This document shows positions 3,463 through 47,201 of a DNA stretch of 64,000 bases, piece by piece; the first letter of the stretch is position 1; each line of letters begins with the position of its first letter. The translations under genes and the position numbers were made by a program. This stretch comes from Mucilaginibacter empetricola (lineage in GTDB: Bacteria > Bacteroidota > Bacteroidia > Sphingobacteriales > Sphingobacteriaceae): assembly GCF_024808665.1 (NCBI RefSeq), contig NZ_JANUBZ010000005.1, forward strand, positions 1 to 64,000, in the 5' to 3' direction. The notes below the pieces were generated by a model. That model was given only the letters and a program-made list of their open reading frames with translations. It made no database searches and was not told the DNA's origin.

Positions 3463-3463
3463 G

Positions 3464-3556
3464 TTGATTTCGGAATTCGGAGTTTCGATTTCGGAATGTG
3501 AATGTCGCAATGCGGATGTCGGAATGTCGAATTCGGAATTGCAAATGTGGATTTAA
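3464..3556. repeat. TTCGGAAT-word repeat spacer
   Basis: Low-complexity run built from variants of TTCGGAAT and TGTCGGAATG directly after the prephenate dehydrogenase stop. The 20-mer at 3476-3495 recurs exactly, as reverse complement, at 16328-16347 in the ribosomal operon spacer. No coding capacity. Confidence 0.7.
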
Positions 3557-3560
3557 AATA

Positions 3561-3602
3561 AACGCCTGCTCAGGTTAAGATTTGAGCAGGCGTTTGCTTT
3601 TT
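3561..3602 (+). terminator. Rho-independent terminator after the TYR1-like gene
   Basis: Perfect 12-bp stem AACGCCTGCTCA (3561-3572) and its complement (3583-3594) with a 10-base loop, followed by TTGCTTTTTATT. It would stop rightward transcription before the convergent C45 gene. Confidence 0.85.
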
Positions 3603-9020: not shown

Positions 9021-9574
9021 GATTTAGGTATAATATGGTTATTCCTACTCTGTTTCGGCTTTTCGGATTCCGCCTTTTTTAATTGCGTTGTGAAAACTGA
9101 AACTATCGGAGGGGTAATATCTTCAGACCTGTAATTTTCGGGGCAAAAATGAGGTCATCCCGATTCCGGGTTTCGCTGGATAATAAGGTATTAGGTTATT
9201 TATATATAAAGTTAACGCTTTCAGGTAATTAGATGCAAGAGCTATTTTAAAATATAATTGCATATCAGACTCAGCTTTATTTTTTTGATTAAATGATGTG
9301 GAAGAATATAAAGGTTGGTTGGATGGGAGTGTGGTGTTATCGAAGTGGATTTGATCAAAATCAATAATAAACAAAACCACTTACTAGTGGAATTTTATAA
9401 CAGGTGATAGAATAATAGGCGTTGTTAAAGTATAATTGTGGTAAATAAGCCATTAAATTGATCGTTTGCTTAATATTTTGATATGGCCTTATCTGCGCCT
9501 ACGCGTCTCTTAACCAATTAATTCAGTTAAAAATCTATTTTTTAATAATTTATAAAAAAATAACTCATTAACTA
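9021..9574. other. 550-bp gene-free region between the MACPF gene and the ribosomal operon
   Basis: AT-rich, with no supported ORF; an 85-codon minus-strand frame at 9123-9380 has no recognisable features. It must contain the MACPF promoter (leftward). The rplC promoter begins at 9575. The expected neighbour of rplC, rpsJ (S10), is not here. Confidence 0.6.
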
Positions 9575-24229: not shown

Positions 24230-24231
24230 TA

Positions 24232-24331
24232 AAGATTAGAGGTTGGAGATTAATTAGTCTCTGACCTCTTTTCATTTTTAATAAAAAGACTTGAGAAAGA
24301 AAGTGAACTAATCTCTGATCTTTAATTAACA
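24232..24331. repeat. Inverted-word spacer between rpoA and rplQ
   Basis: Left: AAAGATTAGAGGTTGGAGATTAATTAG; right: ACTAATCTCTGATCTTTAATT (each given in part). They are imperfect complements, so the spacer can form a long hairpin. The words TAGAGGTT and GGAGATTA recur inside uvrA at 44711-44735. Confidence 0.6.
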
Positions 24332-33401: not shown

Positions 33402-33828
33402 AATCGTCATTGCTCAAAGCCGGAAAAACTTTTTCCATTATCTCATAATTAATGCTGCCTTTACTAAACACCTGTCCGGTAAATGCAAACCCGGCCTTTA
33501 GGTAGAAGCCAAAAGCAGTGTCACGCGCATTGCACCATATTCTGTTTCCTCCATTTTCGCGGGCGTAATTAATAACCCATTGCAATAGGCTATTGCCAAC
33601 TCCCATTTTTTGTGTCGATGGATCAATTGCCAGTTTCCTGAACTGAAAATCAGCACCATTTTGGAACAGGGAAATTATTCCAACAAGCTTGTTGTCCTTA
33701 AATGCTCCAAAATGAATACCATCTTCGTCTTCCGCAAGCCCCATATTGTGTTTAAACTCGTTGGGGTATAAAACATCTCTGCGCAATTGCCAGGTTAGTA
33801 TCGGTGTTATTTGTTCGATGTATATCAT
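33400..33828 (-). CDS. GNAT family N-acetyltransferase
   Basis: 142 residues. The acetyl-CoA motif is RKLAIDPSTQKMGVGNSLLQWVI (R/QxxGxG/A form QKMGVG), preceded by LVGIISLF and followed by WCNARDTAFGFYLKAGF, as in the GNAT fold. It transfers an acetyl group to an amine substrate that is not predictable. It stands alone; its stop overlaps the T-run of the orphan terminator. Confidence 0.85.
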   Translation of the reverse strand: MIYIEQITPILTWQLRRDVLYPNEFKHNMGLAEDEDGIHFGAFKDNKLVGIISLFQNGADFQFRKLAIDPSTQKMGVGNSLLQWVINYARENGGNRIWCNARDTAFGFYLKAGFAFTGQVFSKGSINYEIMEKVFPALSNDD

Positions 33829-33833
33829 TCTTT

Positions 33834-33962
33834 TTAGCTTAGAGCAGAAAGACTAAAGCAGAAAGCTTTTTGTGTGAGCCGAAAACTGAGAGACCATAGC
33901 CGAAAGCTTTTTATGGATTTTTCAAGCTTTTGCTTTCAGCTCTTTGCTGTCGGTTTTCAACT
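33834..33962. repeat. GCAGAAAGC-word inverted repeat spacer
   Basis: Contains GCAGAAAGC, GCCGAAAGCTTTTTATGG and similar, then on the right AGCTTTTGCTTTCAGC and GTCGGTTTTC, which are their complements. It separates two minus-strand genes and has no ORF. Related words appear inside uvrA (44770-44825). Confidence 0.6.
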
Positions 33963-33964
33963 CC

Positions 33965-35506
33965 CTACAATGGTATATTTCCGTGTTTTTTCTTCGGGTT
34001 ATTAACTACTTTGTTTTCCAGCATCTTAAATGCATGGATGAGTTTGATGCGCGTTTCTGCAGGTTCAATTACTTCGTCAATAAAACCGCGTTCTGCAGCA
34101 CGGTAGGGGTTGGCGAAAATATCTGAGTATTGCATTTCCATTTCCTTCCATTTTACTTCTTTATCTTTTGCGGCATTTATTTCGCGCTTAAAAATAATTT
34201 CAGCGGCTCCTTTGGCGCCCATTACTGCAATTTCTGCTGATGGCCACGCATAGTTCATATCGGCACCAATATGTTTGGAGTTCATTACATCATAAGCGCC
34301 GCCATAGGCCTTGCGGGTAATAACAGTAATGCGTGGAACTGTAGCCTCGCAAAATGCATAAAGTAATTTGGCGCCATTGGTAATAATGGCATTCCATTCC
34401 TGGTCGGTACCCGGCAAAAAGCCCGGCACATCTTCAAATACCAGCAGCGGGATATTAAAGCTATCGCAAAAGCGAACAAAACGTGCGCCCTTGGTTGATG
34501 AATGTATATCCAATACTCCTGCCAAAAATGCAGGCTGATTAGCCACAATGCCAATGCTACGCCCGGCCAGCCGCGCAAAGCCCACAACAATATTTTCGGC
34601 GAAATCTTTATGTACTTCTAAAAACGATCCACCGTCGATTACCATATCAATTACTTCGCGGATATCATAAGGCTGCGACGAATTGTCGGGCATAATATTA
34701 TTTAAATCGGGCCTCAGCTCGTTCTTAATTTCATAGGGTAGAGCAGGGGCGGTATCCTCACAATTTTGAGGCATGTAACTCAATAGCTTTTTTACATGCT
34801 GAATGGCCTCTATCTCATTGGCACAGGCAAAATGCGTTACACCCGATTTGGTGGCGTGCGTGGTTGCCCCGCCTAATTCTTCGGAAGTAACTTCCTCATG
34901 AGTTACTGTTTTTACCACGTTGGGGCCTGTAACAAACATGTATGAGGTGTTTTCTACCATCAAAATAAAGTCGGTTATAGCGGGGGAGTACACTGCACCA
35001 CCGGCACATGGGCCCATTATGGCTGATATTTGCGGTACAACGCCTGATGCCATGGTATTACGGTAAAAAATATCGGCATAACCGCCTAATGATACTACAC
35101 CTTCCTGAATCCGGGCACCGCCAGAATCATTTAAACCCACAACCGGTGCGCCGTTTTTCATAGCGAGGTCCATTATTTTGCAAATCTTTTCGGCATGCGT
35201 TTCAGAAAGTGAGCCGCCAAAAACGGTAAAGTCCTGCGAAAAGGCATAAACCAAACGGCCATTTATGGTGCCATAACCTGTTATAACACCATCGCCGGGG
35301 TATTTCTCGTTTTCCATCCCAAAATCGGTAGACCGGTGTGCTACAAGCATCCCAATTTCCTGGAATGAACCCTCATCCATCAAAAAATGTAAACGCTCAC
35401 GTGCGGTAAGTTTTCCCTTTTTATGCTGACTTTCAATACGCGCTTTTCCGCCGCCTAAAAGAGCCTCATTCCGCTTTTGCTTTAATAATTTTATCTTGTT
35501 GTTCAC
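33965..35506 (-). CDS. Acyl-CoA carboxylase beta subunit (propionyl-CoA carboxylase-like)
   Basis: 513 residues; the carboxyltransferase of a biotin-dependent acyl-CoA carboxylase. It has the crotonase-fold glycine motifs: [39 protein letters not shown] and, in the second half, [17 protein letters not shown] and [19 protein letters not shown]. The start is GTG at 35506 ([20 protein letters not shown]); a TTG further upstream is not needed. It usually pairs with a biotin-carrying alpha subunit, which is not in this window. Substrate is most likely propionyl-CoA, but methylmalonyl- or other acyl-CoA is possible. Confidence 0.9.
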
Positions 35507-42530: not shown

Positions 42531-45473
42531 TTATTGGAATCGTTCTTCCAGAAACTTTCCGGTATAGGAATCCTTTTCTTTAATCAAATCCTCCGGAACT
42601 CCTTCAAAAACTACTTTACCACCATTGTCGCCACCTTCGGGGCCGATGTCAATTACCCAGTCGGCACATTTAATTACATCCATATTGTGTTCAATTACAA
42701 TAATGGTATTGCCATGCTCCAACAAAGCATCAAATGATTTAAGCAGCTTTTTAATATCGGCAAAATGCAGCCCGGTTGTAGGCTCATCAAAAATAAAGAG
42801 TGTTTTATGTGTATTGTTGCCTTTAACCAGGAACGATGCCAGCTTAATACGTTGCGCTTCGCCACCAGACAAGGTATTAGATGATTGCCCTAACTGCACA
42901 TAGCCTAATCCAACATCCATTAACGGTTTTATTTTGGCAATGATTTTTGGTTCTTTAACAAAGAATTCCAATGCTTCCTCAATGGTCATCCCTAAAACCT
43001 CCGATACGTTCTTTTCGTGATAGGTAACGTCCAATATGTGCTGCTTAAAACGTTTGCCACCACAAGTTTCGCAGGTAAGGAAAATATCAGCCATAAACTG
43101 CATTTCAATCTTTACCTCACCCTCGCCCTGGCAAACATCGCAACGCCCGCCTTCCACATTAAACGAAAATGCTGATGGCTTTAATCCCGCCGCTTTTGAC
43201 ACCGGTTGGGCAGCATATAAATTACGGATTTCATCCCAGGCCTTAACATAAGTAACCGGGTTGGACCGCGACGAACGGCCTATCGGGTTTTGATCTACCA
43301 GTTCAACCTGTTCAATTTTTTGGTAATCACCCTCTATACTATCATATGTTCCGGTTTGTTCGCCGTTATAATTACCCAATGTTTTTTGTAATGCGGGTGC
43401 CAATACCCGTTTTACTAAACTGGTTTTGCCGGAACCGGATACACCGGTAACTACAGATAATACTCCCAGTGGAAATTTAGCACTTACATTTTTCAAATTG
43501 TTTTCGCGGGCGCCTTTTATTTCAATAAAATCATTCCATTTGCGGCGACTTTTAGGGATGGCAATTTCTTCTTTTCCACTCAGGTAACGCCCGGTAAGGC
43601 TGTTGTCATCTTTGATGATTTCGTCATAAGTACCGGAGAAGATTAAATTACCGCCATGTGTGCCCGCTTCAGGGCCAATATCAATAATATGGTCGGCCGC
43701 TTTCATAATCTCTTCTTCGTGCTCCACCACCAAAACGGTATTGCCTACATCGCGCAGTGATTTCAGTACACTTATTAAACGTTGCGTATCGCGGGGGTGT
43801 AAGCCAATGCTTGGTTCATCCAATACATAAATAGATCCCACCAAACTACTGCCTAATGAAGTAGCCAAATTAATACGCTGTGATTCACCACCCGATAGCG
43901 TGTTCGATAATCGGTTTAATGTTAAATAACGTAGGCCTACATCATTTAAAAACGCTAAGCGGTTGGTTATTTCCATCAATAAACGCTTACCCACTTTGGC
44001 ATCGGTTTCATTTAGTTCGATGGTGTTAAAAAATGCAAGTGCTTTATCCAGGGCCATCAAAACCACATCAGTTATTGATTTGCCATTTATTTTTACATAT
44101 GATGCATCTTGCCTTAAACGGCTGCCCTTACACTCGGGACAGGTGGTTTTGCCACGATAGCGCGACAACATTACGCGGTATTGAATTTTATAGGTTTGCT
44201 CTTCAAGCTCTTTAAAAAACTCATCCAGTCCGCGGAAATAGGCGTTGCCTTTCCACAAAAGCTGTTGTTGTTGTTCGGTAAGCTGATTGTATTGGCGATG
44301 GATCGGGAAGTCGAACTTTAAAGCATTTTTTATAAGCAGATCATTCCATTCACGCATTTTTTCGCCCCTCCATGGGGCTATAGCGCCTTCATAAACACTT
44401 TTGCTTTTGTCTGGAATGACCAGGTCCTCATCAATGCCAATCACTTTTCCGTAACCTTCACATCTTTTGCAGGCGCCATAAGGATTGTTAAAACTGAAAA
44501 AATTTGCGGTAGGTTCTTCAAAACGGATACCATCAAGCTCAAACCTGTCGCAGAAGAAACGTTCCTGTTCTTTTTCAGCATCAGGTTCCTGGTAACGCAC
44601 ATAGCAATCGCCCTTGCCTTCAAAAAATGCAGTTTGTATCGAATCGCCTAAGCGGCTTATGGTTTCATCTTCTTCATTTTTTGAGATACGGTCAATAACA
44701 ATGCGCACGGTAGAGGTTAGTGGCTGGAGATTAGTGGTTAAAGCGTTATCGTCACTCTCTGTCTTTGATTTTTTAGCTGTAGCTTTTGTCTTTTTGCTTT
44801 CTGCTTTTTGCTTTCCGGTTTCTGCTCCTTCCACTTCATTTATCAACCATGAGCCATCATCAACAATGCTCATGTCTTCCAGCAAATCTTCAATTTTTGA
44901 GAGCTTGCCTCTAAATTCCACCCGTACGAAGCCCTTTTGCATTAATACCGCAAGTTCTTCTTTTAAGCTGCGGTTATTGTGCGGATATAATGGGCATAAA
45001 AGGGTAACCTGTGTTTCATCAGGCAGCGTCATAATGAAATTAACTACATCGGTAACATTGTCTTTTTTTACTATTTGGCCTGATATCGGCGATATAGTTT
45101 TGCCTATCCGGGAGAAAAGCAGTTTCAGGTAATCGTAAATCTCAGTTGAAGTGCCAACGGTTGAACGTGGATTGGAGGTAATTATCTTTTGCTCAATTGC
45201 AATAGCTGGAGCTATACCTTTAATATAATCAACATCGGGCTTATTCATCCTCCCTAAAAACTGACGGGCATACGATGAAAGACTTTCCACATAACGGCGC
45301 TGTCCTTCGGCATAAAGCGTATCAAAAGCCAGTGATGATTTACCCGAGCCCGACATACCTGTAACTACTACCAGTTTGTTTTTAGGTATAGCCACGTCCA
45401 TGTTTTTCAGGTTGTGAACTCTGGCTCCTTTAATAATAATATGACGTTGTGGATCTTTGTCTGCTTCTTTCAT
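42531..45473 (-). CDS. uvrA: UvrA, excision nuclease subunit A, with a 40-residue insertion
   Basis: 980 residues; finds bulky DNA damage in nucleotide excision repair with UvrB and UvrC. Two ABC modules: Walker [10 protein letters not shown] (about 39-47) and GVSGSGKTS; signatures LSGGESQRI and LSGGEAQRI; zinc motifs [10 protein letters not shown] and [19 protein letters not shown]. Family proteins have about 940 residues. The excess sits at about 215-254 in the UvrB-binding domain as a Lys/Ala/Ser-rich linker (GKQKAESKK, then [11 protein letters not shown]) followed by TTNLQPLTS. Its DNA is made of words that match intergenic repeats in this window, so it is probably an inserted repeat kept in frame. 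Confidence 0.96.
44711..44828. repeat. Intragenic copy of the word-repeat family in uvrA
   Basis: On the plus strand: TAGAGGTTAGTGGCTGGAGA (44711-44730), then TTTTTGCTTTCTGCTTTTTG (44801-44810 area) and CTTTCCGGTTTCTGCTCC. These words echo 24237-24252 and 33915-33960. Size about 120 bp, divisible by three with no stop, so it adds 40 codons. Confidence 0.6.
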
Positions 45474-46539: not shown

Positions 46540-46636
46540 TGAGTAGTTGATTAAGTTGGAATGGTTGATTAAGTTTTAAGATGTGACTTGATTAAACAGA
46601 TGAATGATTGGATAAAACTTACCAAATCAACTTAGC
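46540..46636. repeat. Word-repeat spacer (TTGATTAAGTT type)
   Basis: Contains TTGATTAAGTT twice and TGATTAAACAG, TGATTGGAT, then ACCAAATCAACTTAG on the right, an inverted counterpart. No ORF. Lies between the sigma factor gene and the small unknown gene. Confidence 0.4.
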
Positions 46637-46944: not shown

Positions 46945-47035
46945 TAGTAAACCACAGAACTGGTTCACAGGTCATAGCTGTTTTTTTATAAATAGCTGAT
47001 GATTTGTGAACCTTTCCATTTTTAAGCCATTTCTA

Positions 47036-47201
47036 TTTATTGAGTCATTTTGTCATTGGTCATTAAGTCATTGATGAGGCGGCGTGTTTCAAATAATCAG
47101 AAACTCTTTTGTATTTGCTAATTATTGATGACTATTGCAGTTAAAAACGATAAGATATCAGCCATAGGCAAAATGACTAATGACCCCAATGACCAATGAC
47201 T
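47036..47201. repeat. TCATT/AATGAC word inverted repeat overlapping the nth start
   Basis: Left: GTCATTTTGTCATTGGTCATT and AAGTCATTGATG (47041-47075, in part). Right: AAAATGACTAATGACCCC and AATGACCAATGACTAA (47170-47201), their complements. The right arm contains the ATG of nth at 47196. Confidence 0.6.

Follow-up and report, generated by a model that had tools for sequence, protein, structure and literature searches.

The uvrA locus

The window, by which we mean the whole 64,000-nucleotide stretch of DNA analysed, contains a uvrA gene from a member of Mucilaginibacter, a genus of soil bacteria. Its 980-residue product matches the Pfam families UvrA_inter and UvrA_DNA-bind and lies above the cut-offs of the NCBIfam UvrA equivalogs TIGR00630 and NF001503; the nearest named record is the UvrA of M. 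frigoritolerans, at 94% identity. A preliminary description of this DNA had credited the protein with about 40 residues in excess, and an in-frame insert of 40 residues was indeed found. The stretch described is real, but its bounds, given there as 44711–44828 and residues of about 215–254, have been moved to those in Table 1. The insert occupies a linker in the UvrB-interaction domain directly ahead of the strand VRIVIDR, and in HMMER alignments with two solved UvrA structures it falls between residues 191 and 199 of 3pih and between residues 204 and 219 of 2r6f, the length of the unaligned stretch at this position differing between the two. As had been stated, the insert contains no stop in the reading frame; the remaining two forward frames both contain stops. 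The preliminary description also called uvrA essential; the gene is usually dispensable. A UvrA paralogue encoded elsewhere in the same genome (contig C21, 22900–27000, locus L358), 47% identical to the protein described here, has no insert.

Table 1. Features of the window that bear on the uvrA insert
Feature	Position	Strand	Basis and remarks
uvrA, 980 codons, the gene carrying the insert	42531..45473	minus	Open frame; Pfam and NCBIfam
In-frame insert, 120 bp (UvrA residues 216-255)	44709..44828	minus	Anchored extraction, genus and outside
Heptamer array, GCAAAAA/GCAGAAA type, encoding 17 residues	44777..44828	minus	Peak at lags 7 and 14; Tandem Repeats Finder
Second array, CCACTAATCTC/CCACTAACCTC type, encoding 11 residues	44709..44741	minus	Word matches in own genome
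Intergenic relative, TTAGAGG-type words in a hairpin	24230..24330		RNA fold z -3.85, 0/200 shuffles as stable
Intergenic relative, AGCAGAAAG words and reverse complement	33828..33965		RNA fold z -1.75, 14/200 shuffles as stable
Intergenic heptamer array, TTCGGAA type, between convergent ORFs	3463..3580		10.3 copies of period 7; RNA fold z -1.86
Intergenic relative, AATGACC-type words in inverted arms	47035..47184		RNA fold z -2.86

Two arrays lie within the insert. Tandem Repeats Finder assigned periods of 7, 14 and 21 to the first, while TAGAGGTTAGTGG-type words of the second have matches in the same genome on contigs C6, C14 and C2. The intergenic array at 3463 was called by the same program and belongs to a word family other than that of the insert. 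Elsewhere in the window, the spacer at 46540–46620, downstream of an ORF of 194 amino acids, contains TTGATTAAGTT-type words that may represent a further word family, and a DUF805b cis-regulatory RNA (RF02914) was recognized on the minus strand at 9042–9076 with 49.3 bits, the gathering score being 35.6.

The insert site within and outside the genus

The UvrA site was read between conserved anchors (residues 121–215 and 256–330) in 139 of 149 genomes of the genus and in 67 records from outside it, a sample that includes many metagenome bins. The ten genus genomes left out had no primary UvrA locus, two being without a match and eight having the paralogue alone listed; the 67 outside records do not include the inserts of a set of 75 other-genus genomes. 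Within the genus the insert ranges in length from 0 to 61 residues, and the site is occupied in 106 of the 139 loci, with 1–19 residues in 27 and 20–61 residues in 79. The other 33 were classed as having no insert, a class in which a short remnant may hide because the anchors are fixed (L183 is an example). Outside the genus, 64 of the 67 records have no residue at the site, and the remaining three, all from Spirosoma, have 7–10 residues there. Among the records examined, therefore, the UvrA insert is limited to the genus. This rules out a linker conserved across Bacteroidota: the preliminary description had named such a linker, shared with the UvrA of distant Bacteroidota, as the observation that would overturn it, and the absence from 64 of 67 outside records means that it passes its own test. 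Its picture of one element inserted into the gene survives in part, in that the DNA is of the spacer kind and adds protein sequence; the site itself is hypervariable, and what we find there is not one element that entered this genome recently but repeat families exchanged between species at the same position.

A seven-nucleotide period in the DNA

At a lag of 7 nucleotides the identity of the insert with itself reaches 0.513; codon shuffling lowers it to 0.307, and none of 5000 shuffles gave as high a value. The same was seen in 77 distinct UvrA inserts of at least 60 nt from the genus, whose identity at lag 7 is 43.1% compared with 27.3% in codon-shuffled sequences (z 33.4), with echoes of the peak at lags 14, 21 and 28. 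Since 3 does not divide 7, a repeat in the peptide alone would give no such period. When the protein was held fixed and synonymous codons were chosen at random, the excess at lag 7 remained (z 17.2), which rules out a peptide repeat as the origin of the period. The heptamer origin of the inserts thus lies at the level of the DNA.

Periodic arrays are not unique to insert-bearing genomes. For each 100 kb of non-coding sequence there were 33.6 periodic peaks in the genome of the window and 27.4 in other genera; samples of other Mucilaginibacter had 58.3 (long inserts), 24.3 (short inserts) and 44.9 (no insert). Over the non-coding DNA of this genome as a whole the identity at lag 7 was not raised, and the autocorrelation of the sample is nearly flat. 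A search of the non-coding DNA for enriched 9-mers did not recover the heptamer words of the insert and returned other repeats instead, for example CGTCATTGC. Words of this further dispersed repeat (CGTCATTGC / CGCAATGAC) occur in the non-coding DNA of a 400 kb sample of contig C1 and also in a sample of insert-free Mucilaginibacter. A period of 8 nt, formed by CAAATGGG-type words, was seen around codon 1717 of a 3138-codon ORF on the same contig (C1:191883–201296).

Words shared with spacers and with other genomes

The words of the UvrA insert are shared with spacers. A search of the genome, as the preliminary description had proposed, returned at least nine other matches to the insert at E<=0.1 (best E 1.1e-7); of nine such matches, five contain no coding DNA, two are non-coding over at least 95% of their length, and the remaining two (L217, L220) fall within coding sequence. 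The earlier statement that particular words are common to the insert and to the spacers at 24232 and 33834 holds only for related words, which occur there with two to three mismatches; neither TTTTTGCTTTCTGC nor GGAGATTAG has an exact copy in these spacers. Within the window alone the TTAGAGG-type word does not stand out from chance, being equalled in 14 of 100 shuffles, and it is at the genome-wide and genus-wide scale that the signal of word sharing is clear. In 14 Mucilaginibacter genomes with a UvrA insert of 18–42 residues the window insert had at least 183 matches (E<=0.1), against 42 for the reversed sequence; the 183 exclude the uvrA of the window's own genome, and at least two of them (in G044 and G130) are the uvrA inserts of those genomes. 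Seven insert-free genomes of the genus gave at least 11 matches against 2 for the reversed insert, and ten genomes of other genera gave at least 18 against 9. These counts are of pieces, of which one spacer may contribute several, and some are lower bounds because there were more candidates than were scored; the reversed insert is a conservative control, since its TTAGTGG part, when reversed, looks like other genuine words. Evidence to the contrary comes from the closest relative, G018, in which the words of the UvrA insert have no match although its own UvrA linker can be aligned by eye with that of the window.

Some of the spacers contain inverted arms. The RNA of those at 24230 and 47035 is predicted to fold well and that of those at 3463 and 33828 weakly; the UvrA insert, in which single arms are present and no complete hairpin, is not predicted to fold (z +0.45). 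For seven of 19 non-coding periodic arrays in sampled DNA of the genus, a reverse-complement partner nearby (within 150 nt) exceeds the 95th percentile of the controls, and the arrays differ from the control windows as a set (Mann-Whitney p 5e-4).

IspG, a second gene with inserts

A period scan of 464 kb of this genome gave five peaks in coding DNA, one of which is in UvrA and two in IspG; another is the 8-nt period of the 3138-codon ORF. IspG is essential in organisms that make isoprenoids by the MEP pathway alone. In this genome IspG (C1:371046–373055; L239:11046–13055) has 669 residues, lies above the cut-off of TIGR00612 and contains two in-frame repeat arrays. We read the two sites in 50 loci of the genus, taken from 58 matching genomes among 61 searched (30 as listed, and 20 chosen in favour of long or split matches). 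Both are hypervariable and look like repeats of several families in translation: KGERLKAKG...SPFTFHLSP, which has two inverted arms, DHGPWSMAHG, TQDSELKTQ, LTTHHSPLTSH and PSPEGRA...VSPTGGDLEGA. The excess at lag 7 is present at both sites, relative to codon shuffles (z 34.5 and 19.5) and with the protein fixed (z 20.9 and 14.0).

As with UvrA, the words of the IspG inserts recur in the genomes that carry them. Those of site 1 in this genome have at least 38 further matches there and none in two other-genus genomes searched; those of site 2 have nine matches in the genome, none in G018 and one in a single other-genus genome. The site-1 words of G126 have at least 75 matches in that genome and at least 63 in its relative G023, one in the genome of the window, and none in G012, G155 and G163. 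In 28 IspG loci from 38 genomes of other genera the two linkers have median lengths of 16 and 17.5 residues, compared with 25 and 24 in the genus. There the period is weaker at site 1 (z 6.6) and missing at site 2 (z 1.0), so that the process is not wholly limited to Mucilaginibacter.

The last of the IspG families, found in G014, is not a heptamer array but a palindromic repeat of ~90 bp. It is seen at L294 (3025–3129), and at least 42 matches to it lie in G014, the IspG copy included. Matches were present in all 15 genomes of the genus that were searched (at least 20 in each of 12, and one to six in the other three) and in none of five from other genera. In genes, it was found at the DNA level in the UvrA of G098 and the IspG of G039, and at the peptide level in the UvrA of G064 and the IspG of G071. 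By eye, the G014 element has CTAC, that is GTAG reversed, inside the stem and not clearly at its end.

Turnover between species

Closely related species differ at the same site. On a tree of 140 rows built from the flanks of the UvrA insert (L043 was left out), the presence of the insert changes at least 9 times and its type at least 32 times, in a tree whose deep nodes are unresolved and whose bootstrap is not settled. Loci with similar UvrA may have different inserts, as L029 and L112 (the ~90-bp repeat) have in comparison with L117, and L123 has an insert of 34 residues against 12 in L176 at a flank identity of 92.9%. Among 60 pairs of UvrA with a flank identity of at least 86%, the length of the insert differs in 15 and is the same in 45.

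Origin of the inserts

Taken together, these observations make it probable that the UvrA linker is unstructured spacer-repeat DNA in translation, and that at tolerant sites such repeats give rise to linkers, extend them and take their place while selection keeps the in-frame, hydrophilic versions. Mucilaginibacter genomes would hold several families of short dispersed repeats, many of them degenerate 7-nt words, often in two inverted arms able to form a hairpin, and at least one other the ~90-bp palindrome. Such repeats would build up in unconstrained DNA, that is in spacers and at those few places in genes where additional residues are tolerated, among them the UvrA linker before VRIVIDR and the two IspG linkers. 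At these positions repeats may be gained, slippage may lengthen or shorten them, and other families may replace them; selection would retain the versions that are in frame, free of stops and hydrophilic, and could later constrain the peptide to some degree. In this proposal two parts are inferred: how the repeats were gained at the molecular level, by copying or by local slippage with template switching, and that the linkers have no specific function. Weighing against it are the periodic arrays of genomes that have no insert, the absence from G018 of the words of the UvrA insert and of IspG site 2, the period at IspG site 1 in other genera, the lack of a marked inverted-repeat excess in the UvrA inserts and at IspG site 2, the confident model of the second IspG site, the small number of coding peaks in the scanned DNA and the constraint on the alignable insert peptides. 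A bolder form of the proposal, to which we would give about an even chance, is that a few linkers of core enzymes in one genus are landing pads at which hairpins of unrelated non-coding repeat families come and go, in frame and on the time scale of species, with selection acting as a filter only.

It is possible, though we consider it rather unlikely, that local slippage is sufficient, so that arrays arise and grow in place and linkers resemble spacers because both converge on favoured words, without any element being copied into the gene. The strictness of the period at 7, 14, 21 and 28 nt would be expected of slippage, and so would the inserts of G136 and G027 (L014 and L175), which have flanks 91.7% identical and differ by exactly 7 residues, or three heptamers. 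The single arms of the window's own insert point the same way, as does the longest exact inverted repeat in the UvrA inserts as a set, which at 5.24 nt is not in excess of the 5.09 nt expected; at IspG site 2 there is likewise little or no excess. At IspG site 1, however, the longest exact inverted repeat has a mean of 7.0 nt against 5.2 nt in shuffled sequences and reaches at least 9 nt in 11 of 50 loci, and the matches listed for the site-1 words of this genome are 22–48 nt long and 80–96% identical. The ~90-bp element, too, speaks against slippage alone: it is not built of heptamers, has many matches per genome and appears in the IspG and UvrA sites of several species. For this repeat copying is the simpler view; in the UvrA insert of the window the words may have been copied into the gene or may have arisen in place by slippage.

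Reading frame, selection and structure

Each of 179 inserts (79 from UvrA and 50 from each IspG site) is free of in-frame stops and has a length that is a multiple of 3. Stops in the other forward frames are common, occurring in 59–74 of the 79 UvrA inserts and in 36–38 and 27–40 of the 50 inserts at the two IspG sites. This in-frame purity indicates that the inserts are read, as expected for intact genes. In 22 alignable pairs of UvrA, dN/dS was 0.131 in the inserts and 0.042 in the flanks; the pairs had inserts of equal length and at least 60% identity, a choice that biases the value down. Even so, the value suggests that the alignable insert peptides are not free to drift.

These data bear on a second alternative, in which the UvrA linker is selected for a peptide rich in Lys, Ala and Glu, perhaps in contact with DNA or UvrB, and the DNA repeats are a by-product. 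The constraint on the alignable pairs is compatible with it, as is the composition of the 79 UvrA inserts of at least 20 residues, which are Lys-rich (18%) with a mean net charge of +1.1, and insert lengths and sequences are kept in some clades, for example as 22- and 30-residue forms. We nevertheless regard it as improbable: the seven-nucleotide period persists with the protein fixed, 33 of the 139 loci were classed as having no insert, the residues are almost wholly different in close relatives such as L029 and L117 or L123 and L176, and the dN/dS pairs were picked by identity. That the insert results from misassembly, belongs to a pseudogene or is bypassed by the ribosome can be set aside almost completely, since nothing was found in favour of this, the insert is present in single-contig genomes and in named isolates, none of the 179 inserts breaks the frame or contains an in-frame stop, and the alignable peptides are under purifying selection.

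In an AlphaFold2 model of the 980-residue UvrA, residues 212–253 form the sole segment of three or more residues with a pLDDT below 50, and on this model the linker is predicted to be unstructured. In the IspG model, site 1 (312–326) is one of eight segments with a pLDDT below 50, some of which are in conserved parts, so that a low pLDDT says little about disorder in this protein, and site 2 of the same protein is modelled with confidence, with a helix from residue 513 on.

Comparison with known repeat systems

Repetitive elements of the REP type, palindromes of 20–40 bp tagged with GTAG or CGTC at one end, have been described inside ORFs, where they code for tens of residues, several of them in uvrA (in Opitutus terrae and Thioalkalivibrio) and in other repair genes, and in the recB of Xanthomonas different REPs are found at about one site (PMC3733652). 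The likeness to the present case is that of dispersed non-coding repeats inside ORFs, uvrA included, but the REPs are tagged and, save for recB, mostly at different sites, whereas in Mucilaginibacter most of the long inserts consist of degenerate heptamers and occupy a single conserved site, here compared across many species. The palindromic elements of Rickettsia (RPE) resemble our inserts in that several repeat families lie in frame in unrelated genes and elsewhere (PMC10969869), as seen here within the conserved proteins UvrA and IspG and in spacers. An RPE, however, is ~150 bp long and has a conserved peptide (PMC10969869), whereas the units in Mucilaginibacter are of 7 nt and the peptide varies by species; the G014 element of ~90 bp, which the uvrA of the window does not carry, comes closer. 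Small intergenic repeats, the RU of enterobacteria, also occur in frame in genes and have been proposed to give new peptides, but their units are of 103–168 bp and have been likened to MITEs (PMC2759123).

In the P6b stem of the Nostoc tRNA-Leu intron, degenerate 7-nt units form the stem arms and motif classes have been replaced at the site in independent lineages (PMC4476775). A tandem, degenerate 7-nt unit at the DNA level is what we found, with inverted stem arms in some spacers and at IspG site 1 but not in the UvrA insert; the Nostoc case is that of an RNA stem-loop in an intron, whereas ours is a protein-coding linker with more word families. Heptamer repeats reported elsewhere are TAACTGA, from Beggiatoaceae, Cyanobacteria and five Bacteroidetes (PMC4679880), and the G-rich units of Xanthomonas and Nostoc (PMC4692102). 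These share the 7-nt unit and a mostly intergenic position, but consist of one or a few fixed words that are mostly non-coding, and not of many degenerate words captured in frame within enzymes. The repeats of Borgs are found between and within genes, where they commonly form disordered segments, evolve fast and mark a repeat hotspot; they are, however, perfect amino-acid tandem repeats of archaeal extrachromosomal elements (PMC9879509), whereas the words in Mucilaginibacter are dispersed across chromosomal loci. The UvrA insert, though modelled as unstructured, has degenerate units and is not a perfect tandem repeat.

Among the papers listed from one open-access library, none deals, by its title, with such inserts in Mucilaginibacter. 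That palindromic repeats can lie in frame in genes, even inside uvrA, is already published for other phyla; what is new is the heptamer type of the repeats and the way in which, throughout a genus, one repeat has replaced another at the same sites.

With 139 UvrA and 50 IspG loci, Mucilaginibacter offers a dense natural series for tracing, from one species to the next, how protein linkers are born from non-coding repeats and turn over. It allows tests of whether repeat DNA can give rise to new protein sequence that has no function at first, and of the ways in which heptamer repeats form and spread. In these bacteria repeat DNA of the non-coding kind appears to serve as raw material for new protein sequence, and if the core-enzyme linkers are indeed landing pads, then spacer DNA would be a continual supplier of new disordered protein segments.
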